A stretch of DNA of 64,000 nt from Roseburia sp. AF12-17LB (GTDB lineage Bacteria > Bacillota > Clostridia > Lachnospirales > Lachnospiraceae). The translations under genes were made by a program, and so were the position numbers. The stretch is taken from positions 331,587 through 395,586 of the forward strand of contig NZ_QUHR01000002.1 in the NCBI RefSeq assembly GCF_003479605.1, given 5' to 3'. The notes beneath the pieces were generated by a model that saw only the letters and a list, made by a program, of their open reading frames with translations, ran no database searches and was not told where the DNA came from. Shown here piece after piece: positions 51,953-63,924 of the stretch (the first letter of the stretch is position 1; every line of letters begins with the position of its first letter).

Positions 51953-52168
51953 ATGAACAACTGTAATTGTCAGCCACAAAGCAGCCGTCCGGCTGTTCCG
52001 ACACCTTATACGAAACAGTTTGCCTGTAATCAGGAACTTGCCATGGCTTATGTTCCATGGCAGCAGTTCGGCAATCTGTACGAACCTGACCAGGCTCTGC
52101 GTAATGGCACAGTCTTTCAGGATTTAAATAAACCTTTCCATGGTTCCATGAAAGGAGGCAGATTCTGA
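51953..52168 (+). CDS. cotJA: Spore coat-associated protein CotJA
   Basis: A 71-residue protein with the CotJA core LAMAYVPWQQFGNLYEPDQA followed by GTVFQDLNKPF. CotJA/B/C are inner-coat components in Bacillus. GAGGT precedes the ATG. The stop overlaps the ATG of cotJB by one base. Confidence 0.93.
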   Translation: MNNCNCQPQSSRPAVPTPYTKQFACNQELAMAYVPWQQFGNLYEPDQALRNGTVFQDLNKPFHGSMKGGRF

Positions 52169-52434
52169 TGAACAATATGCCAATGAACCAGTCCCAGCTT
52201 TTAGACTGGATTAATCAGGTCAGCTTTGTAGCTTATGATACTGCCCTTTACCTTGACACCCATCCTTATGATGAAGAAGCACTTTCCTTCTATAACCACT
52301 ACCGTACCCTGCGGTTAAAAGCAGTGAAAATGTATGAAGAAAAATATGGTCCCCTGACTTTAGACGGTGCCGACACAGACGGTCACTGGAGCTGGGGAAG
52401 CATGAGAAATCCATGGGAAGGGGGAAATTGTTAA
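52168..52434 (+). CDS. cotJB: Spore coat protein CotJB
   Basis: An 88-residue protein with the CotJB signature LLDWINQVSFVAYDTALYLD, the DEEALSFYNHYRTLRLKAVK stretch, YEEKYGPLTL and the terminal HWSWGSMRNPWEGGNC. It overlaps cotJA by one base and abuts cotJC. Confidence 0.94.
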   Translation: MNNMPMNQSQLLDWINQVSFVAYDTALYLDTHPYDEEALSFYNHYRTLRLKAVKMYEEKYGPLTLDGADTDGHWSWGSMRNPWEGGNC

Positions 52435-53046
52435 ATGTGGCAGTATGAAAAAAGACTGGAATATCCGGTCAACATCAAACAGACCGATCCGAAAACCGCA
52501 CAGTATATCTTAAGCCAGTACGGAGGTCCTGACGGAGAAATCAACGCATCCTTACGTTATCTCTCCCAGCGCTATTCCATTCCTTACCGTGAAGTAGCCG
52601 GACTGCTTACCGATATTGCGACAGAAGAAATTGCCCATTTTGAGATGATTGCAACCATCGTACACCAGCTTACCAGAGACCTGACTCCGGAGGAAATCAA
52701 AGCCTCTAACTTCGGTCCTTACTATATTGACCACACCCTTGCCGTATGGCCACAGGCTGCCGGTGGTGTTCCACAGAATGCCTGTGAATTCCAGTCCAAA
52801 GGCGATCCGATTACTGACCTTATGGAAGATATGGCTGCAGAGCAGAAAGCCCGCACCACTTACGATAACATTCTTCGTGTCGTAAAAGACCCGGACGTTG
52901 TAGATCCGATTCGTTTCCTGCGTGCCAGGGAGGTCGTACACTTCCAGCGTTTTGGCGAAGCACTCCGGATGGTACAGGAACACCTTGACTCCAAGAACTT
53001 CTATGCATGTAACCCGGCTTTCGATAAGAGCTGTGGCTGCAAATAA
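52435..53046 (+). CDS. cotJC: Spore coat manganese catalase CotJC
   Basis: A 203-residue Mn-catalase-family protein. The four-helix metal ligands are visible in TDIATEEIAHFEMIATIVH and AREVVHFQRFGEALRMV, with an E in EDMAAEQKARTTYDNI. It ends with a short Cys-containing tail (SCGCK), possibly for cross-linking in the coat. The ATG directly follows the cotJB stop. It probably removes peroxide in or on the spore coat. Confidence 0.94.
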   Translation: MWQYEKRLEYPVNIKQTDPKTAQYILSQYGGPDGEINASLRYLSQRYSIPYREVAGLLTDIATEEIAHFEMIATIVHQLTRDLTPEEIKASNFGPYYIDHTLAVWPQAAGGVPQNACEFQSKGDPITDLMEDMAAEQKARTTYDNILRVVKDPDVVDPIRFLRAREVVHFQRFGEALRMVQEHLDSKNFYACNPAFDKSCGCK

Positions 53047-53146: not shown

Positions 53147-53188
53147 TTTTTTACTTTACAGGAAAGCAATTTCCTGTAAAGTAAAAAA
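53147..53188. terminator. Perfect 19-bp palindrome with GCAA loop
   Basis: The arms 53147-53165 and 53170-53188 are perfectly complementary, start with T6 and end with A6, and enclose a GNRA-type GCAA loop. It could act as a bidirectional intrinsic terminator for cotJC or for the opposite operon. Its right arm nearly recurs at 63913-63932 next to a transposase remnant. Confidence 0.65.
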
Positions 53189-53229
53189 TAGCGTATCACC
53201 GATATTTTCTATCGATGATACGCTATTTT
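53185..53229. terminator. Bidirectional terminator between cotJC and the four-gene operon
   Basis: AAAATAGCGTATCA pairs perfectly with its complement (53185-53198 with 53216-53229), extended by an inner CGATA/TATCG stem with one mismatch between. T-runs follow on both strands (six on the minus strand). It serves cotJC on plus and the 396-residue membrane protein on minus. It shares four bases with the preceding palindrome, so the two hairpins exclude each other. Confidence 0.8.
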
Positions 53230-54419
53230 CATTCTCCGGTTCCGCAGAGCCGGTCCACAGAATTAATAATCTCACGGACTTCCGGGATTTCCTCATGATA
53301 CTCTTTCATGAGTTTTTCAATTTCTTCCTTCTGTTCTAATACTACATCCATGTTATATTCAATGGATGCCCGGATTTTCTGCCGCCGGCTCAATAATTCA
53401 TGCTTGATTTCCACCATTTCACGCTTATCTACCAGTGCATTGGGTTGACTAATCCAGACCTTTGCATCATAAAGTTCATATTTTTGCAGCATGCGTACCA
53501 ACTTTCCATTAAAATATTCCAAGTCATCACTGTTCCGCTCAAATTTCTCTCTTTCCCGTTTGGCTTCTAAGTACTGCTCCCAGAGATAGGTCAGTTCATA
53601 GGAATTATGCACATGGTATTTCTCACAGGCATAATCCACCGCATTCGTAGAATTTACGTACTTTATTTTAGTACGGTTCAAAAGAGTAATGGCATGATTC
53701 ATGTTCACTTCTGCCCGCTTGATTTCTCTTGTATTATTCTGATTCCGGAACAGCATAAAGAATCCACTGGCTGCCGCAGCTACCATCAGAATCGTAAATA
53801 GAATCCGTACATCCATTTCCAATGCCACATGAAGAACCAATATAACTGCAAGGAATGCCAGTACCATGCCAAATACTACATAGGATGCCTTCCGCAGAAT
53901 CTTCTGTTCTTCCATTAACTCTTCCCGGTAATAGGCCCATTCATTCTTCTCCCCTTCCAGGTAATTCATATCACGCTTTACGGCCGCCTGATACATCTCA
54001 TTTGCCTGCAGGGTCCGGATGGATTCCGTCAGAGTCTCCTCTTCCTGTTCCATCTGTGCATACTGCGTATCTGTCAGCTTCTTGGTTGCTTTCAGATAAT
54101 CGGAACGGGACTGATCCAGTGTAAGAATACTGTTTGCAGTATCTCTTAAAGCAGCTGCCTCATCTTCCGGCAGTTCTTCAATAATCTGGATATCCTTTAA
54201 ATAAGAAGTCACCACACGATATTCAGACTTTTCATTTTCCAGGGTCTTTGTGGTGTCAATCATCTGTTCACAGTGACCCAGAACATAATGTTGTACTTTA
54301 TGTTCATCCTTCCGGTCTTCTTCCGATAACGTATCCTCTGTGATACATTCTAAGACCTCTTCGATTGTTTTCTTTGGTTTCCTTTTTCTTCTAAAAAATT
54401 TTATCAATGTTATGCCCAC
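53229..54419 (-). CDS. Coiled-coil membrane protein of unknown function (operon gene 4)
   Basis: A 396-residue protein: basic N-terminus (KFFRRKRKPKK), a long helical/coiled-coil region (about 20-175), two adjacent transmembrane helices (about 179-198 and 204-224) with a very short hairpin, and a second coiled-coil region (about 230-390). Both ends should be cytoplasmic. I recognise no known domain. It overlaps the end of the preceding TPR gene by ten bases, so the products are probably made together. It may anchor a cytoplasmic assembly to the membrane. Confidence 0.75.
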   Translation of the reverse strand: MGITLIKFFRRKRKPKKTIEEVLECITEDTLSEEDRKDEHKVQHYVLGHCEQMIDTTKTLENEKSEYRVVTSYLKDIQIIEELPEDEAAALRDTANSILTLDQSRSDYLKATKKLTDTQYAQMEQEEETLTESIRTLQANEMYQAAVKRDMNYLEGEKNEWAYYREELMEEQKILRKASYVVFGMVLAFLAVILVLHVALEMDVRILFTILMVAAAASGFFMLFRNQNNTREIKRAEVNMNHAITLLNRTKIKYVNSTNAVDYACEKYHVHNSYELTYLWEQYLEAKREREKFERNSDDLEYFNGKLVRMLQKYELYDAKVWISQPNALVDKREMVEIKHELLSRRQKIRASIEYNMDVVLEQKEEIEKLMKEYHEEIPEVREIINSVDRLCGTGE

Positions 54420-55174
54420 CGTCCATTGCTTTCGTAAATATATTTTTTCTTATCCAGCACATCTCGAAATGCTTCCAGTACTTCTTCCTCATCATTCCAT
54501 TGCTTATGAATATCCTCTAATGTCTTTTGCAGTTCTTCTGATACTTCATAAACCTGTTCCTTTTCATCCGGTGCTACCATCCGCCATGCTTCTTCCATCT
54601 CCCGCATGCATGCCGGATTGTTATTATAGTCATAAGCTTTCTTAAAGCATCGTGCCGCATCCCGGTACAGGAATAACCCGGTATTTGCAACACCAATATT
54701 ATTCCATATATTTCCTATGACAGAAGCATCAAGCTTCCCCGCCTCTTCCTTCTGCAGCAGACGCATATATTTCCTGATAGCCATGACATACCGATGATTC
54801 ATAAGGCTTCTGTCTGCCCGGATTTTCATACATTCAATTTCTGATTTATTTTCTACTTCTGCCAGTGCATATTCGATTTCATCTTTTTCTTTCTTTGTGC
54901 AAAAGCCGCAGGCATCCATCAGAAGCCGGACTTTCTTTGCCAGCGTTATTTTCTTTCGGACAGCCTCTTTTAACTGCCCGGCTAACTCCAGGTCTTTTAA
55001 CTCCTCTGCAATCCAGCTGATTAAATCATCCGACACAAAAGAATCGTCAAGATATTCCGTGTGGTTTAAAATATACCAGTTCAATTCCTCCAGGGAATAG
55101 ATATTTATCATATTCTGTTCTAAATAATATGGCACATCGGTTTCTTTCCGATTGCATAAAATCAATTCTCCCAT
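54410..55174 (-). CDS. TPR-like protein of unknown function (operon gene 3)
   Basis: A 254-residue helical protein. The C-terminal half contains TPR-like pairs: RYVMAIRKYMRLLQ, VIGNIWNNIGVANTGLF and LYRDAARCFKKAYDYNNNP (about 133-190). The N-terminal part (about residues 40-110) is also helical. No membrane segment or enzymatic motif is visible. TPR proteins often scaffold complexes; partnership with the ATPase gene 12 bases upstream is inferred. Confidence 0.78.
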   Translation of the reverse strand: MGELILCNRKETDVPYYLEQNMINIYSLEELNWYILNHTEYLDDSFVSDDLISWIAEELKDLELAGQLKEAVRKKITLAKKVRLLMDACGFCTKKEKDEIEYALAEVENKSEIECMKIRADRSLMNHRYVMAIRKYMRLLQKEEAGKLDASVIGNIWNNIGVANTGLFLYRDAARCFKKAYDYNNNPACMREMEEAWRMVAPDEKEQVYEVSEELQKTLEDIHKQWNDEEEVLEAFRDVLDKKKYIYESNGRWA

Positions 55175-55185
55175 GAAGTCTCCTC

Positions 55186-56415
55186 CTATAGTTCCATTTT
55201 ATATTCCCACACTTTTTCAGAGCTTTTATAAATCTCTCCAAATCCAAGGTCCCGTATCGTAACTTTTACCGCTGAATCAGACAGTGCTTCTGTCATAACA
55301 GAAAGTCTGGTCATGCGCTCCGGACGTTTTGGAATATCCGTAAGCTCTAAGGATTCTATCTTTGCTTCCCTGCTGTCCGGAAGCTGCAGCCAGAAATCAA
55401 CGGTATTCGTACCTGCCAGTAAAATCTCGCACCGATTCTTTGCTTCATACCAGTTTTCTCCTGCACTTACCAGTGTATGGAAAATAAGTTCTTCCCGGTC
55501 TTTTACTTTAAGGCTGATATTTACCTTCATCTCATTCTCGCCAATATAGACAAACTGCCATGGCTGCATTCCGGTATGGATGCAGGATGCATAACAGGCT
55601 CCCTTAGCATAAAGATTTTTGCCCAAGAAAACATGCCTTCCGTTGCAGAGAAATTTTAAGGATTCTCTCATCCATTCTCCATCAAAACCATCCCCTGTCA
55701 GATATACCGAAGAATAGATTTTACGGGAAACGGCATCTGTTACTACATCTAAAAACGCAGTGTCTTTATTGCCAATCAAAGGACCATAATCTTTCAGATA
55801 AATATGAACCAGCTGTGGTGTGGAATTCAGATTACGCTCCATGTAATAAAAACACATACTGTTCTTGGAATAATCAAAGAGAACTGCATCATGCAGCCAC
55901 AGTTCTTCCTTCTGGCTTAAAGCATAATAATAAAAGCTTTCTGCATAATCGATGACATGACACTGCTCTTTTGTCCACTTCATCCGTCCGGCTATTTTTT
56001 CAATCAGTTCCATCTTCTCCCGGTTTAAAGTATCCATGGTAATGGTAATTCTTGCCAGCTTCATGGATGTGCCGAATTTCTGCGGTACCGTAAGAATTTT
56101 ACGGACAAAGAGACTTAACAGTTCTACCGTATCATAAGTTTCCCCTTCCACGGTAACCTGTTCGCCTGCCAGTGCCCGGCTGAAGAGCCGGTCACAGCCG
56201 CTTCCTTCGCCATTTTTCATGACAGTCTCTGCTTCTTTTCCGTAATACCACTGTCCGATTCCTCTCCGCTTACAAAGGCTTAATGGAATCTGGTACAGTT
56301 CACTGCCTGCCACGGTACTGATGGTATCCGGCTCTGACATATCGGATGTACAATATGATACTAATGCGTATTTTTTTCCAAAATCAAGTCCTATTGAAAG
56401 GCTTTTTTCCTTCAT
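55186..56415 (-). CDS. Actin/Hsp70-fold ATPase-like protein (DUF5716-like, operon gene 2)
   Basis: A 409-residue protein with the layout of the actin/Hsp70 superfamily: phosphate-1 motif IGLDFGKKYALVSY (Asp11), phosphate-2-like LFDYSKNSMCFYY (Asp181), and an adenosine motif VYLTGDGFDGEWM (about 237-249). Between them lie the TITMDTLNREK and DYAESFYYYALS segments expected for subdomains. I associate it with DUF5716. Function is unknown. The C-terminal ~120 residues look beta-rich and may be an accessory domain. It lies 30 bases after the large solenoid gene. Confidence 0.8.
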   Translation of the reverse strand: MKEKSLSIGLDFGKKYALVSYCTSDMSEPDTISTVAGSELYQIPLSLCKRRGIGQWYYGKEAETVMKNGEGSGCDRLFSRALAGEQVTVEGETYDTVELLSLFVRKILTVPQKFGTSMKLARITITMDTLNREKMELIEKIAGRMKWTKEQCHVIDYAESFYYYALSQKEELWLHDAVLFDYSKNSMCFYYMERNLNSTPQLVHIYLKDYGPLIGNKDTAFLDVVTDAVSRKIYSSVYLTGDGFDGEWMRESLKFLCNGRHVFLGKNLYAKGACYASCIHTGMQPWQFVYIGENEMKVNISLKVKDREELIFHTLVSAGENWYEAKNRCEILLAGTNTVDFWLQLPDSREAKIESLELTDIPKRPERMTRLSVMTEALSDSAVKVTIRDLGFGEIYKSSEKVWEYKMEL

Positions 56416-56445
56416 ACCATCACCCTGTTATTGTTTTCCCTGTTA

Positions 56446-59400
56446 TTACATCAGTTGAAAACGTTCTTCATTCCTTTTCTTCATGCTGTCATATTTCCGT
56501 AAAAGCCGCTCTAACTTCTCATAATCCTTTAAGGTATATTCTAATTCCATTTCATTCAACATATCGTAGGTGCTTCCGTTTTCCCTGCCGCAGACATCCT
56601 TACAGGAAAGCCGTCCACTCTCAGTCACAACGGACTCCCGTGGTGCTTCCTCTGAAATATAATACGGAATTTCTTCTCCAAAGAATACGATAAATTCTTT
56701 TACGAAAATGCCCTCATACATCTCATTCATATCTTCATCCACATAGGATTCACCCTTCTGGTAGTGAATCACCACACGCTTGCTCGGATTTGTCCGGTAT
56801 TCCACAAACTGCCGGTCGTAAAAATGAAATCGATAGCGAATCTCCTCCGGCATCTGCTGATAAAATGCAAAATAAAGATTCTGTGCCAGCTGCTCCTGTA
56901 GAAGCTGCTCTGTCATCTCCATTACACCTTTTTCTTCTATGGACAAATCCCTCTTCGCCACTGCATAAAGCAGTGCCAGCTTCATCACCTGGCTTAATTC
57001 TTCCTGTTCCTCATAATTTTTCTTTAAGCCTCTAATGACATTTTCCGGTACAATGCCCTGATGCACAAAATAGAAATGTGCGAAATAATTTACATATGCT
57101 TTCTGCAGAAGATGCGGTGCTCCGTGTGACACAAAGCTTTCATAAATGCTCTGCACCTGTTCTACAAATTCTGCTGTATATAACATCTGCATCAATAACC
57201 GTTCTTCCAAGTCTCTGGTATCTATATCAAAGGTCTGCGCTGCTGACCAGACCGCCGCCATTACACGGGTCGGACCGCAGTAGAACTGTGCTAAATACTG
57301 CAGCATCTCTTTACTGTATTTCTTCGCCTGAAAAGTCACTGCACACAGTGCCAGCAGGAAGTCATCACTTTCATAATCCACTTCTTCTATTTCATAAGTC
57401 AGAAGTGCTGTCAGTTTCTCCAGCCGGATGCCTTCCCAGCCAAATTCCCGGATATCCGGATATGCAATCTCATATAGCCGGTATTCCAACATCAGATTCA
57501 AAAGATAGGCTCTGTCATCCCGCTTCATAGAAGAAAGCGGTGCATGACGCAGACACTCTTCCACCAGTTCCTGATTATCTTCCTGCTCATAGAAATGTAC
57601 TGCCTTTGCATAAAGCTCCGCCCGGTAACTTTCCCGCAATGCTTCCTCTTTTAAAAAGATGCGTAAATACTCACTGTCCTCCGGCATAAACGCACGGTGG
57701 GTATCCCTGGATGTAAAATGATACAAAAGATACGAAATCTCATATGGTGCATATTCCATGCAGGTACGGTAAAAGGCACCAGGTCTCATCAGCTTTTCCA
57801 GCTGGTATGAAATCTCACTGCCATACCGGTATCCCTTCGTATCCTCAAATACAATGACATAGTCCTTGCTGTATAACTCAAAATAAGCACTGCCATTTAC
57901 AATCGGCACACACTGCACTTTTCGCAGCTGGTCATGCAAAACATACATCCGCACAATATTCGGTGCAAAGCAGTTCATTTTATGGGTAAAGAGAATCTTC
58001 GCCAGTGGTCCTGCCATCTCTTTTTGTATCATGCCTTTATTTAATAAATCAGAATAGATAATCGCCAGATTATCATCGATATGACCTTCTTCTATCTGGG
58101 CAATTGCGAATTCTTCCATCCGCTTCCGGTAACTGGAATATACCTCCGGCTCTTTCTCCTTTAACGCTACTACATTTGCAAGCAGAGCCGCCTTCTGTTT
58201 GTATGGAATGCTGCTGTTATACTGAAAATACATCTGTATCATCCGTGGAATTTTCTTAATGGCAAGTAAATCCATGGACATTAAATATGCTTCATTTAAT
58301 CCTGCCAGCCGCAAATCTTCTTCCACGCCACGTTCAAACCAGATATGATAATGCAATCCAAAACGCTGTCCTCTTATCAGGTAAGCACAGATTGCTGACA
58401 ACATCTGATTATTCTGAAATTTATCATATGCCACGCACATAGTCTTATAAAGCAGCGGATGAAATACCCGTTTTTCCGATACCAGCGTCGTAATCTGCAT
58501 GGCAAGGTCACTAGTCAACACACCTTTTTTTGCCGCCCAGTAAAGAATGCGGATTTCAAAATCAGTAAGTCTCGTTAAAAGATACGGATTCTGCCAGTAT
58601 AAATAGAATCCTTCGATATAGAGAAACGGACTGTTACAGCCGTCTAACATCTGGCTCTCAATTGCCCGGATTTTCCTGGTATCATTTTCGCAATATTCTT
58701 TCTTTAAGAAAAGCAGCATCCAGAACACCCGGATATCATCTGTTTTCTGATAAATTTCTTCAATCTCTGCAGTCAGCCGGTTCACATAGGATTCTTCCCG
58801 CTCCCACAACGTACGGAGATAGAGGAAATATGCATAAAGCGGTGTATCTTTTGCTTCCTCTTTCCGCCGGAACTCATCAAATAACCACTCTGCCTCCTGC
58901 CTCTGTCCGCTTACCAGTAATGCCTGTATTTTCATCAGAAGATACCAGTCATTTTCCGGCCGCATTGCAATCAGATGATTCAGTGCATCTAACATTCCTG
59001 ATGCAAAAAGTCCTGCACCAATCTTTTTCATACGATAATTGAGATAGATTCCGGTGATATGTGCAAGTGTTCTCTGCTCTTCCAGATAATCGATATGCTC
59101 CTGTTCTCTGCGCTCCGGCGTCCTGATTATGGTAATCTCATAAGTAAGATGCTGATAAATATTTTCTAAAGTAATTCTTCCATAATTTTTTCCGGTATGA
59201 AGTTCTGCCGGGTCAATATAATAAATAAGGTCGCAGATACTTCCGGTAAAATCATCTGAAGTATAAACATTCTTTTCCAGTTTTAAGAAGCTGCTGTCTG
59301 TCTGTGCTTCAAAGCTTATATACCCCCAGCCATTCTTCTGCACAAAAAGCGTTTCCTTCTGCTCCTCTTTGATATCCTGATAGGTAATTTCCTGTTCTTT

Positions 59401-60039
59401 TAACGCAAGCTCAATGCGTGGCTTGGCATTGATCGTAACCAAGAACTCCTCCATACCGGAAATCAATGCTCCCGGTCCGCCAAAGCCGGCATACCATAAT
59501 AGTTCTTTTCCTTTTTCTTCTTTTAATACATGTTGAAAGCCCTGGGAAGCAAACAGGCGGTAAGCTTCCATATAATCCGTCTGTGCCAGTTTGATAAAAT
59601 CACTGAGATTTCGGATTCTTCCGGTAGACGCATTCCCATAAGGCCGGATTATAGACACAACAAAAGAAAGGCTATATTCCAACTGATTACAAATAATACA
59701 GAATTCACCCTTTTGTATATCACCAACCCGGAAACCCTCACTATGGAACTGAAATCCGATTCGGACTTCTTCCCCTTCAAATTCCGGTGTCAGACATTCC
59801 ATATATGGATTAGAGGAATAAATCAGCCCCTTTACCGGAACATGGTTGGATACTTCAATCACAAATTCTCCCGTATAATCCTGTCCCTCTAATACCTCAA
59901 TTTCAATCTTCTCTTCCGAAAGAGATAAAACCGGCTGTTCCTGTTCAAATTTTCCTGCTGCAAGTCTCTGAATCCGTCTACGCAAAATGTCACCTGCTTT
60001 TCCTTCTCCGATATGAGATTTTGTTGCTTTTTCTCTCAT
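56446..60039 (-). CDS. Giant alpha-helical-repeat protein with N-terminal beta domains (DUF5717-like, operon gene 1)
   Basis: The 1197-residue product begins with two beta-rich, Ig/ASH-like domains (about residues 40-135 and 205-305, with YTGEFVIEVSNHVPVKG and FTGSICDLIYYIDPAELH segments). A roughly 800-residue alpha-helical TPR-like solenoid follows, then a C-terminal beta segment with MYEGIFVKEFIVFFGEEIPYY. No membrane segment is visible. I associate it with DUF5717. The frame is open from an ATG at 60039 that has no ribosome-binding site and lies only about eight bases from the predicted transcript start. A TTG at 59985, five bases after AGGTG, would give MRRRIQRLAAGKFE and is a serious alternative; I list the ATG as the outer limit. 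Confidence 0.82.
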   Translation of the reverse strand: MREKATKSHIGEGKAGDILRRRIQRLAAGKFEQEQPVLSLSEEKIEIEVLEGQDYTGEFVIEVSNHVPVKGLIYSSNPYMECLTPEFEGEEVRIGFQFHSEGFRVGDIQKGEFCIICNQLEYSLSFVVSIIRPYGNASTGRIRNLSDFIKLAQTDYMEAYRLFASQGFQHVLKEEKGKELLWYAGFGGPGALISGMEEFLVTINAKPRIELALKEQEITYQDIKEEQKETLFVQKNGWGYISFEAQTDSSFLKLEKNVYTSDDFTGSICDLIYYIDPAELHTGKNYGRITLENIYQHLTYEITIIRTPERREQEHIDYLEEQRTLAHITGIYLNYRMKKIGAGLFASGMLDALNHLIAMRPENDWYLLMKIQALLVSGQRQEAEWLFDEFRRKEEAKDTPLYAYFLYLRTLWEREESYVNRLTAEIEEIYQKTDDIRVFWMLLFLKKEYCENDTRKIRAIESQMLDGCNSPFLYIEGFYLYWQNPYLLTRLTDFEIRILYWAAKKGVLTSDLAMQITTLVSEKRVFHPLLYKTMCVAYDKFQNNQMLSAICAYLIRGQRFGLHYHIWFERGVEEDLRLAGLNEAYLMSMDLLAIKKIPRMIQMYFQYNSSIPYKQKAALLANVVALKEKEPEVYSSYRKRMEEFAIAQIEEGHIDDNLAIIYSDLLNKGMIQKEMAGPLAKILFTHKMNCFAPNIVRMYVLHDQLRKVQCVPIVNGSAYFELYSKDYVIVFEDTKGYRYGSEISYQLEKLMRPGAFYRTCMEYAPYEISYLLYHFTSRDTHRAFMPEDSEYLRIFLKEEALRESYRAELYAKAVHFYEQEDNQELVEECLRHAPLSSMKRDDRAYLLNLMLEYRLYEIAYPDIREFGWEGIRLEKLTALLTYEIEEVDYESDDFLLALCAVTFQAKKYSKEMLQYLAQFYCGPTRVMAAVWSAAQTFDIDTRDLEERLLMQMLYTAEFVEQVQSIYESFVSHGAPHLLQKAYVNYFAHFYFVHQGIVPENVIRGLKKNYEEQEELSQVMKLALLYAVAKRDLSIEEKGVMEMTEQLLQEQLAQNLYFAFYQQMPEEIRYRFHFYDRQFVEYRTNPSKRVVIHYQKGESYVDEDMNEMYEGIFVKEFIVFFGEEIPYYISEEAPRESVVTESGRLSCKDVCGRENGSTYDMLNEMELEYTLKDYEKLERLLRKYDSMKKRNEERFQLM

Positions 60040-60053
60040 TACAGTTATAATAG

Positions 60054-60082
60054 ATTATAAACTATTTAAAACACACATGCAA
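60054..60082 (-). promoter_or_regulatory. Sigma-A-type promoter of the DUF5717-like operon
   Basis: On the minus strand TTGCAT (60077-60082) is 17 bases from TATAAT (60054-60059). The predicted start is near 60047. The divergent PLP-enzyme gene begins at 60120, so the intergenic region serves both directions. Confidence 0.7.
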
Positions 60083-60119: not shown

Positions 60120-61211
60120 ATGATAACACCAAAAGAACATTTTCACGGAAGTGATTTAGAAAAAATAGAAGCCGTTTACGGTATCAAAAAAGAGGATATT
60201 ACAAGCTTTTCCGCCAATGTCAATCCCTTAGGCGTATCTCCGCTGCTGCGAAGTACTTTGGCTTCCCATATTGATGCCATTACATCCTACCCGGACCGGG
60301 AATATACTTCTTTAAGAGAATGTATTGCTGCCTATACCGGCACCGATGCCAGCCAGGTCATTGTAGGAAATGGCTCCACGGAATTAATCTCTCTTTTTAT
60401 TCAGATTGAGCATCCGAAAAAAGCCATGATTCTCGGTCCGACTTATTCGGAATATGAGCGCGAAATTTCCTTAGGCGGTGGTACTACACTCTACTATCCA
60501 CTCCGTGAAAAGGACGATTTCGTCCTTGATGTGGATGATTTTACCGCTCACTTAAATGAAAGCATCGACCTTTTAGTACTCTGCAATCCCAATAACCCTA
60601 CCTCATCCTGCATCAACCGGACGGATATGCGCCGGATTTTAGATATCTGCAAGCAATATGATATCTTTGTCATGGTGGATGAGACTTATGTGGAATTTGC
60701 CGATAACATGGATGAAATTACCGCAGTTCCACTGACCCACTACTATAACAATATTATTATCCTGCGTGGAACATCCAAATTCTTTGCTGCTCCTGGGCTC
60801 CGCCTTGGCTACGCTATCAGCGGCAATCAGGATTTAATCAAATCCATCAATACCAGAAAAAATCCATGGACCATTAACTCTCTTGCCGTAATTGCCGGAG
60901 AATTGATGTTTACCGATGAGGAATACATCCAGCAGACAAAATCTCTTATTTCTTCAGAGCGTGCCCGGATTTATGAAATCTTTAAAAATCACCCGGATTT
61001 CAAACCATACAAGCCATCCGGCAACTTCATGCTTCTTAAAATCTTAAGAGAGGACATTACTTCTGCGGATTTATTTGATAAAGCAATCCGGAAGAATATG
61101 ATGATTCGCGACTGCTCTACTTTTCCTTTCTTAGATAACAAATACATCCGCTTCTGCTTTATGATGCCGGAGATGAATGATAAGCTGATTGACTGTCTTC
61201 TTTCGAAGTAA
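60120..61211 (+). CDS. PLP-dependent aminotransferase, CobD/HisC-like
   Basis: A 363-residue fold-type I PLP enzyme. The N-terminus HFHGSDLEKIEAVYGI with FSANVNPLGVSP is typical of threonine-phosphate decarboxylase (CobD) and related histidinol-phosphate aminotransferases. The PLP-binding features are IVGNGSTELISLF, LCNPNNPTSS, VMVDETYVEF and the Schiff-base Lys in TSKFFAAPGLRLGY. No cobalamin or histidine biosynthesis genes are nearby, so the substrate is undetermined. AGGAGG nine bases before the ATG makes the start clear. A bidirectional terminator follows. Confidence 0.88.
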   Translation: MITPKEHFHGSDLEKIEAVYGIKKEDITSFSANVNPLGVSPLLRSTLASHIDAITSYPDREYTSLRECIAAYTGTDASQVIVGNGSTELISLFIQIEHPKKAMILGPTYSEYEREISLGGGTTLYYPLREKDDFVLDVDDFTAHLNESIDLLVLCNPNNPTSSCINRTDMRRILDICKQYDIFVMVDETYVEFADNMDEITAVPLTHYYNNIIILRGTSKFFAAPGLRLGYAISGNQDLIKSINTRKNPWTINSLAVIAGELMFTDEEYIQQTKSLISSERARIYEIFKNHPDFKPYKPSGNFMLLKILREDITSADLFDKAIRKNMMIRDCSTFPFLDNKYIRFCFMMPEMNDKLIDCLLSK

Positions 61212-63432: not shown

Positions 63433-63924
63433 TTGTTTCTTGTGTTCATCGCCATTGTGAAATGGAATCCTCATATCCACGCTCTCATCTCCGAGGGTGG
63501 GGCTGGTAACATCACTCCCTGGCGTCCTGTCAAACACTTTGATTACAATTTCCTTCGTAATGCCTTCCGTAAAGTTCTCCTTGAACAGCTTACTTCCCGC
63601 ATTGGTCCATCTTTTCGTAAAGTTAAAAATGAAATGTACACCAGACACGAAGACAACAAAACTGTTACTGAAACTATTCCTGCTTTGGACTTCATCCAGA
63701 AACTGATTGTCCACATCCCTGAAAAACATTTCAAAATGCTTCGCTACTATGGGGTATATGCAAAACATCACAAACAGGAAAAGAAACTTCTGGTTTTAGA
63801 AGTTTACCACAAAAAACGTCATAAACAACGTCATGGCGAATCCAACATTCTCTCTTTTGTCATGTCATTTTTTATTTCCAGTTTATTATACACTATTTCT
63901 GACGATTTGAGAAATTTCCTATAA
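63433..63924 (+). pseudogene. Y2/IS91-like transposase remnant with internal deletions
   Basis: The open frame contains KWNPHIHALISEGG, the His-hydrophobic-His motif of Y2-type (IS91/IS1294-like) transposases, followed by FLRNAFRKVLLEQL and later ETIPALDFIQKLIVHIPEKHFKMLRYYGVYAKHHKQEK. The N-terminal zinc-binding part is missing, and the preceding TTG start reads non-homologous sequence. From memory of intact relatives, a stretch is missing between MYT and RHEDNK and another between HKQEKK and LVLEVYHKK, so the piece looks doubly deleted in frame and cannot be active. The part after HKKRHKQ is unrecognised. Confidence 0.7.

Follow-up and report, generated by a model that had tools for sequence, protein, structure and literature searches.

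A conserved gene set of Lachnospiraceae with an Hsp70 relative lacking key ATP-site residues, a possible remnant of a multi-Hsp70 locus

Introduction

The described systems closest to the gene set analysed here are chaperone machines of the Hsp70 family. The set comprises four minus-strand open reading frames (ORFs), designated A, B, C and D, which according to the ORF listing encode 1197, 409, 254 and 396 amino acids, respectively; it lies in a 64,000-nucleotide stretch of Roseburia sp. AF12-17LB (NZ_QUHR01000002.1, positions 331,587-395,586, forward strand), hereafter the window, whose numbering is used throughout. With the canonical DnaK/Hsp70 and GrpE system it shares gene B, which is homologous over the shell of the nucleotide-binding domain (NBD) and the β part of the substrate-binding domain (SBD), and a sister-lineage version of the operon encodes several Hsp70s and a GrpE domain. 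However, B lacks Lys70, the phosphate-2 residues, the IIB segment and the lid, the operon in the window encodes neither GrpE nor a J-protein, and A, C and D are not known as components of the canonical Hsp70 system.

Two further comparisons are relevant. Ssz1 of the ribosome-associated complex and Hsp110 are derived from Hsp70, are thought to act without a normal ATPase cycle and retain a complete NBD. Their structural match to B is high, but B is shorter, bacterial and linked to A, C and D. The other comparison is with GTPase-centred (GAP1-N2) systems with an HSP70-GrpE-FNIII-TPR theme, in which HSP70, GrpE and an Ig/FNIII-TPR protein occur in one locus (Kaur et al. 2020, PMC7159879).

By score, A and B are members of the Pfam families DUF5717 (PF18983/PF18984) and DUF5716 (PF18980), respectively, to which Pfam assigns no function; the model descriptions state neither an Hsp70 origin nor the partners C and D nor the long operon discussed below. 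A first-pass annotation of this DNA had likewise offered only DUF-level names, and no published function for the DUF5716/DUF5717 set or for the long operon was found in a literature search whose coverage did not extend to most subscription journals. Here, we argue that A-B-C may be the conserved core of a housekeeping assembly reduced from a multi-Hsp70 locus, a reading to which, when stated in full and with its proposed function, we assign a probability of about 0.58 on the basis of sequence comparison and structural models.

Gene B is a relative of Hsp70

Gene B is a true Hsp70 relative by fold and ancestry. Its product scores far above the Pfam threshold of its family (PF18980, DUF5716_C; expect value (E) 7.5e-108, score 360.4 against a cut-off of 34.7), and a profile of 53 B sequences, when compared with the sequences of the PDB, matched only DnaK (11 sequences at E 0.1, the best at 9.4e-5). 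The AlphaFold2 (AF2) model of B has a predicted local distance difference test score (pLDDT) of 94.2 and a predicted template modelling score (pTM) of 0.91, and its last element is a strand. Among the structural matches listed for this model, Hsp70-type proteins account for 48 of 50 with Foldseek and for 49 of 50 with VIA, the remainder being chains of the ciliary central-pair complex of unstated identity. The match spans both the NBD and the β part of the SBD and is best for DnaK in its 'stimulating state', a docked, ATP-like form. The SBD β part can also be assigned via a transitive Pfam overlap of HSP70 and DUF5716_C in the paralogs encoded at L101, a locus of a sister lineage. The first-pass annotation had proposed an actin/Hsp70 fold for 55186-56415 and had considered a cytoskeletal or, alternatively, a chaperone role; the models now give Hsp70 specifically, the listed matches do not favour a cytoskeletal protein, and the chaperone reading came closer, given that a multi-Hsp70/GrpE locus appears to be the ancestor of the operon.

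The ATP site of B appears to have been lost

Residues were counted in 83 relatives of B, a set that includes the B of locus L001 (98% identical to that of the window) and leaves out the window's own B and four B-C fusions. Three divergent B sequences (L077, L083 and L087) were kept in the counts and omitted from the tree described below; for L116, a wrongly chosen ORF was left out of the counts and replaced by the correct ORF in the tree. The position of DnaK Lys70 is occupied by Lys in none of the 83 relatives and the phosphate-2 GGG is equally absent (0/83), whereas the Lys and the three Gly are found in all eight DnaK controls; Thr at the Thr199 position occurs in 7/83 relatives versus 8/8 controls. 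The B of the window shows the same absence of Lys70 and GGG. In its motif 1, GxDxG is kept and the subsequent TTN of DnaK is not, motif 2 (DxGGGT) is lost, and motif 3 retains its first Gly.

Whole segments are missing as well. The distance from the phosphate-2 to the adenosine motif is 59-78 residues in B, as against 134-182 residues in 47 rows used for comparison, which comprise DnaK, other Hsp70s and operon paralogs. The segment that makes up lobe IIB of Hsp70 between these motifs is missing in 83/83 relatives, so that B does not have a complete four-lobed NBD. After the adenosine motif, B continues for 168-180 residues versus 305-323 in DnaK, and no helical lid is present. As the same part is equally short (147-201 residues) in the long-operon proteins Hsp70a, B1 and B2, the lack of a lid predates the Lachnospiraceae form. 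Conservation within B is lowest in the phosphate-2 region (0.40; mean 0.50) and highest in the adenosine-side region (0.61). A near-invariant Glu159 of B lies close to the column of Glu171, which is not counted as lost because an alignment gap offsets this column.

Taken at the level of function, the DnaK-type combination of an intact phosphate-1 motif, an intact phosphate-2 motif and the catalytic Lys is not found in B, and the catalytic-position counts, together with the length of IIB relative to the paralogs, speak at the sequence level against B as an active ATPase. The claims that B keeps three nucleotide-site motifs, acts as an ATPase and makes the set ATP-switched, all made in the first-pass annotation, are thus not borne out. 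From the aligned sequences, we consider Hsp70 ancestry combined with loss of the ATP site to be very likely. We infer from sequence and model that B no longer hydrolyses ATP, and it probably does not bind ATP either.

The main rival explanation arises at this point. A-B-C might assist the housekeeping DnaK as a co-chaperone: B would be a non-cycling partner like yeast Ssz1 or Hsp110, and A and C would bring clients to DnaK or localise it. In structure, B does match these proteins well. However, Ssz1 and Hsp110 have a full NBD, whereas B has no IIB, and no J domain was found in the long-operon and interspersed proteins scanned. We regard this explanation as unlikely.

Distribution of the gene set

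When reference genomes were searched with B, 51 loci were recovered, in which order and strand are constant: A lies upstream on the same strand in all 51, C is present in 50 and D in 46, and at the five loci without D the DNA examined ends no more than 168 bases past C (or past B where C is missing). The gene linkage read from the window by the first-pass annotation is therefore kept far beyond chance. In a sample of 120 genomes from the GTDB family of Roseburia faecis, B was found in 117, always as a single copy. A was also found in 117, ten of which have two matches to separate profile regions that overlap slightly at most, and C in 117 at E 1e-3 and in 116 at E 1.5e-37 or better; the weak C match of G037, like weak D matches in G021, G036 and G078, was excluded from the strong counts. 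All three genes are present in the same 116 genomes. Among the exceptions, G037 and G099 have neither A nor B nor a convincing C, G106 has A (starting at contig base 40) without B or C, and G028 (1.2 Mb; L078, C1:82000-101000) has a divergent B alone, with no A, C or D found, which is possibly an orphan or the result of an incomplete assembly. In wider samples, B was found in 4/299 genomes of a phylum sample and A in 11/291 genomes of a class sample, 10 of them over the cut-off. These counts indicate that A-B-C is a near-universal trait of one family and not a patchy accessory island.

The distribution bears on the possibility that the set is a domesticated or simplified relative of the GAP1-N2 conflict systems. 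The long operon, with its Hsp70s, GrpE, Ig-type and TPR-like A and VWA, does recall their HSP70/GrpE/FNIII-TPR theme. Nonetheless, no GTPase or GAP1 domain occurs among the families shown for the proteins of the L101 operon, a GAP1-N2 profile matched in 1/22 genomes searched, and there on another contig, and the occurrence of B once per genome in nearly the whole family is unlike that of a patchy conflict system; such an origin thus seems improbable. A known anti-phage defence system was also considered and rejected, as 0/4 proteins match PADLOC models at E 0.1. The family sample speaks against a role in sporulation only: SpoIVA is over the cut-off in 80/120 genomes, and B is present in 78/80 genomes with it and in 39/40 without it.

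The profile of D gave matches in 56/120 family genomes at E 1e-3, 53 of them strong. Because D is convincing in only 53/120 genomes, the conserved core is A-B-C, and the description of the locus as a four-gene, membrane-anchored set does not hold in general. To look for a replacement of D, the DNA downstream of C was examined in 20 of the 64 genomes lacking a D match; the profile of D had no match at E 0.1 in any of the 20. The gene groups shared among these regions are transporter-type genes (in up to 7), among them a permease-like membrane protein two genes after C (in 6), and valS-like genes (in 3). A valS gene (Pfam-checked in L105 only) or a look-alike ORF of about 880-911 amino acids lies 3' of the operon in L105, L070, L073, L074, L079, L121 and L127; as a neighbour in several lineages with and without D, valS is perhaps an old association.

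An ATP-switched, membrane-anchored assembly of cytoskeletal or envelope type, as originally envisaged, can be weighed against the same data. B does have the actin/Hsp70 superfamily fold and D a membrane hairpin, but the ATP motifs and IIB segment of B have been lost, its listed structural matches are nearly all of Hsp70 type, D is convincing in only 53/120 family genomes, and no D-like gene was found 3' of C in the 20 D-lacking genomes examined. We therefore judge this explanation quite improbable.

A longer operon in sister lineages

In the other families of the order, PF18980 matches are weak and fall mostly in paired neighbouring ORFs. Twenty loci examined comprise two of the short type and 18 with a larger operon, which has the order A (as a single ORF or as two), Hsp70a, a GrpE-domain fusion, B1, B2 (Hsp70c), Hsp70-VWA and a TPR protein. 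This operon is complete and in order in 12/18 loci, some with interspersed genes, while the remaining loci have part of it with the order unchanged; D is added in 2/18 (L086 and L105). At L101, Pfam assigns HSP70 (E 5e-76), GrpE (E 3e-13) and strong TPRs, B1 matches both DUF5716_C (E 1.5e-26) and HSP70 (E 1.4e-17) in one protein, and two further Hsp70s give HSP70 at E 7e-63 and at E 4.5e-96, the latter plus VWA. Lys70 and the phosphate motifs are present in all rows of Hsp70a, B2 and Hsp70-VWA. By contrast, B1 has degenerated halfway: Lys70 is found in 0/9 rows, and the IIB segment and part of the motifs are still present. At L113 and L116, other Hsp70 genes adjoin an ORF with what looks by eye like a J domain at its start; this Hsp70 pair is separate from the operon.

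The source names attached to the GrpE and VWA proteins (for the latter, the best 120 of 527 matches) include Defluviitalea raffinosedens, D. phaphyphila, Defluviitaleaceae, metagenome-assembled genomes (MAGs) of 'Epulopiscium sp.' and unplaced Clostridiales/Clostridia. Among 196 genomes of the order, Hsp70-VWA was found in 69 at E 1e-150 and a strong B match in 24 (single in 23, three in G428), and only G428 has both. Weaker PF18980 matches occur in 65 genomes, 64 of which have Hsp70-VWA. In ten Lachnospiraceae genomes, a genome-wide search with Hsp70-VWA, the only gene of the long operon so tested, gave at best DnaK-like or other Hsp70s of no more than 37% identity, and nothing in G101.

A maximum-likelihood tree of 75 Hsp70-family rows places all 27 Lachnospiraceae-type B sequences together (100/99), with B1 of G428 as their sister (100/97) and the other long-operon B1 rows as a grade. 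The B1 of G428 keeps a 139-residue IIB segment. Its locus, L086 (G428:C25:32000-50000), carries the full long operon with D; Hsp70-VWA and the TPR protein are each in two ORFs there, which reflects decay or an assembly error, and the GrpE-type protein is short (279 amino acids). Collinearity is simple: the long operon minus Hsp70a-GrpE and B2-VWA equals A-B-C-D. A reduction in Lachnospiraceae can be inferred because G428 links the short and long forms, which have the same gene order. In the simplest history, three intact Hsp70 genes and the exchange factor appear to have been lost from the locus, and IIB from the remaining Hsp70.

The opposite direction, in which the short form would be ancestral and sister lineages would have inserted Hsp70a, GrpE, Hsp70c and Hsp70-VWA, draws on the fact that there is a single intermediate genome and that the branches are long. 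However, in B1 of the long operon the IIB segment persists along with part of the motifs, and the nearest relative of the IIB-less clade lies in a long operon, so that IIB would have to have been regained. This history is very improbable.

Genes A, C and D

The product of gene A matches PF18984 (E 9.7e-275) and PF18983 (E 3.8e-89) with DUF5717 scores of 914.1 and 299.3 against a curated cut-off of 25. According to AF2 (pLDDT 86.7), Foldseek and VIA, it has two N-terminal Ig-type sandwiches, the first PapD/ASH/MSP-like, followed by a TPR/HAT-like helical solenoid, which agrees with the β domains and solenoid anticipated for this 1197-residue protein. The Foldseek template modelling scores normalised to A are low (0.06-0.13) because the matches cover single parts of it, and the VIA rows mostly span residues 34-307, with the solenoid and C-terminal part barely covered. 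Gene C was rightly described as TPR-like, given weak TPR scores in the window protein and strong ones in the sister-lineage homolog; in four other genomes (L069-L072), a relative of C forms an in-frame fusion with B. D has no Pfam match over the cut-off, and the two-helix membrane element expected in it is recovered by hydropathy (Table 1).

Organisation of the locus and neighbouring genes

Table 1. Positions of genes, domains and candidate transcription signals in the window
Feature	Position	Strand	Basis or remarks
Gene A, DUF5717_N + DUF5717	56446..59985 (ORF opens at ATG 60039)	-	Pfam, N-terminus alignment, AF2, Foldseek, VIA
PapD/ASH/MSP-like Ig domain of A	59638..59940	-	residues 34-134, counted from ATG 60039
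Second Ig-type β sandwich of A	59113..59421	-	residues 207-309
Gene B, DUF5716 pseudo-Hsp70: NBD shell without IIB, SBD β part, no lid	55186..56415	-	
SBD-β-like domain of B	55189..55524	-	residues 298-409; AF2 strands, DnaK superposition to residue 503
Gene C, putative TPR-like adaptor	54410..55174	-	weak TPR matches in window protein; sister-lineage homolog with strong TPR matches
Gene D, lineage-variable: two transmembrane helices between a coiled coil and a conserved coiled-coil domain	53229..54419	-	hydropathy, family alignment
Transmembrane hairpin of D	53748..53879	-	helices at residues 181-199 and 206-224 (hydropathy)
Candidate promoter, TTGCAT-17-TATAAT, weak -35	60054..60082	-	sequence; also present in L001 (98% identical B)
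Terminator-like 20-pair stem, then T-rich sequence	53185..53229	listed on minus strand by scan	between D and convergent cotJC

The four genes are tightly packed, as first described, with 30 bases between A and B and a 10-base overlap of C and D; the gap between B and C is 11 bases and not 12. The terminator proposed directly after D was recovered as a stem followed by a T-rich run. The promoter proposed upstream of A is present in the sequence, but its -35 box matches the consensus at only 3/6 positions, for which reason it is not listed by the promoter scan. Only 14 bases separate the proposed -10 box from ATG 60039 downstream of it. Gene A probably starts instead at TTG 59985, codon 19 of the ORF, since most family N-termini align there; AGGTG lies five bases upstream of this codon.

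Convergent to the operon, at 51953-53046 (+), are a cotJA-like ORF (51953-52168, by eye), cotJB (PF12652) and a cotJC of Mn-catalase type (PF05067). These genes of spore-coat type share the window with apparent flagellar genes, a long run of ORFs at about 1700-30900 (-) being of flagellar/chemotaxis type by eye. On the other side, a divergent aminotransferase gene (PF00155) occupies 60120-61211 (+), and an ORF at 63433-63924 (+) looks by eye like a transposase fragment. Across 71 loci, a relative of the aminotransferase lies beside the operon in 20, in 19 of them as the first gene upstream on the opposite strand. The largest flank cluster, in 29/71 loci, consists of ABC-type ATP-binding genes at mixed positions; a purF-like cluster (by eye) occurs in 24, and HtpG (Hsp90; one member checked, L022:2489-4564) lies upstream of A in 10/71. 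A role deduced from neighbours was dismissed, as the flanks of these loci vary by lineage.

Discussion

The proposed history would begin with a locus encoding four Hsp70-family proteins, three intact and one degenerate, a GrpE-domain protein, a DUF5717 scaffold and a TPR protein, of the kind that persists in Defluviitaleaceae-type relatives. This locus would have been stripped of its three intact Hsp70 genes and of the GrpE gene in Lachnospiraceae, and the degenerate Hsp70 left behind, B, would also have given up its IIB segment along with further parts of its ATP motifs. B might now serve as a fixed, nucleotide-independent clamp or bracket on the solenoid of A, held through its Hsp70-type β domain, with C as an adaptor between B and partners and D, where present, tethering the complex to the inner face of the membrane. 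The function could be the holding or assembly of proteins without an ATP cycle of its own, for a general rather than a sporulation-specific need. Judged from sequence features and models, the chance that B has a scaffold role is about even. The more specific idea that a core process of Lachnospiraceae runs on a 'retired' Hsp70 machine, in which a lidless Hsp70 deprived of IIB became an ATP-independent structural clamp attached to the PapD-Ig/solenoid scaffold, is put forward tentatively, at somewhat less than even odds. We know of no other Hsp70 machine that has been turned into a fixed scaffold.

Several observations weigh against this reading. The phosphate-1 Asp is kept in 75/83 B rows and the first adenosine Gly in 83/83, ATP binding persists in some Hsp70 relatives whose sites are altered, and the loss of binding by B is judged from sequence and a model. 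The absent lid is not a Lachnospiraceae step. The direction of change depends mainly on one intermediate genome, whose locus has split ORFs, and the tree has long branches and midpoint rooting. One match of the VWA protein is a MAG labelled Turicibacter, outside the expected group. The genome-wide test of absence from Lachnospiraceae covered Hsp70-VWA alone, and some of the ten genomes tested hold one further Hsp70 beside DnaK. With respect to function, G037 and G099 imply either that the core is not strictly indispensable or that these assemblies are incomplete, a membrane location is not general because D is absent from about half of the family genomes, and the flanking genes are lineage-specific and point to no role.

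Lachnospiraceae belong to the dominant bacterial groups of the human colon, and a gene set found in 116/120 genomes of this family has no described function that we could find. If the proposed history is true, it shows how an ATP-driven chaperone system can shrink into one that works independently of ATP; both operons, full and reduced, are still found in related living species. The occurrence of both forms in living relatives makes the reduction step directly testable. Moreover, as a core that is nearly family-specific, A-B-C would be a target for asking what sets these bacteria apart.

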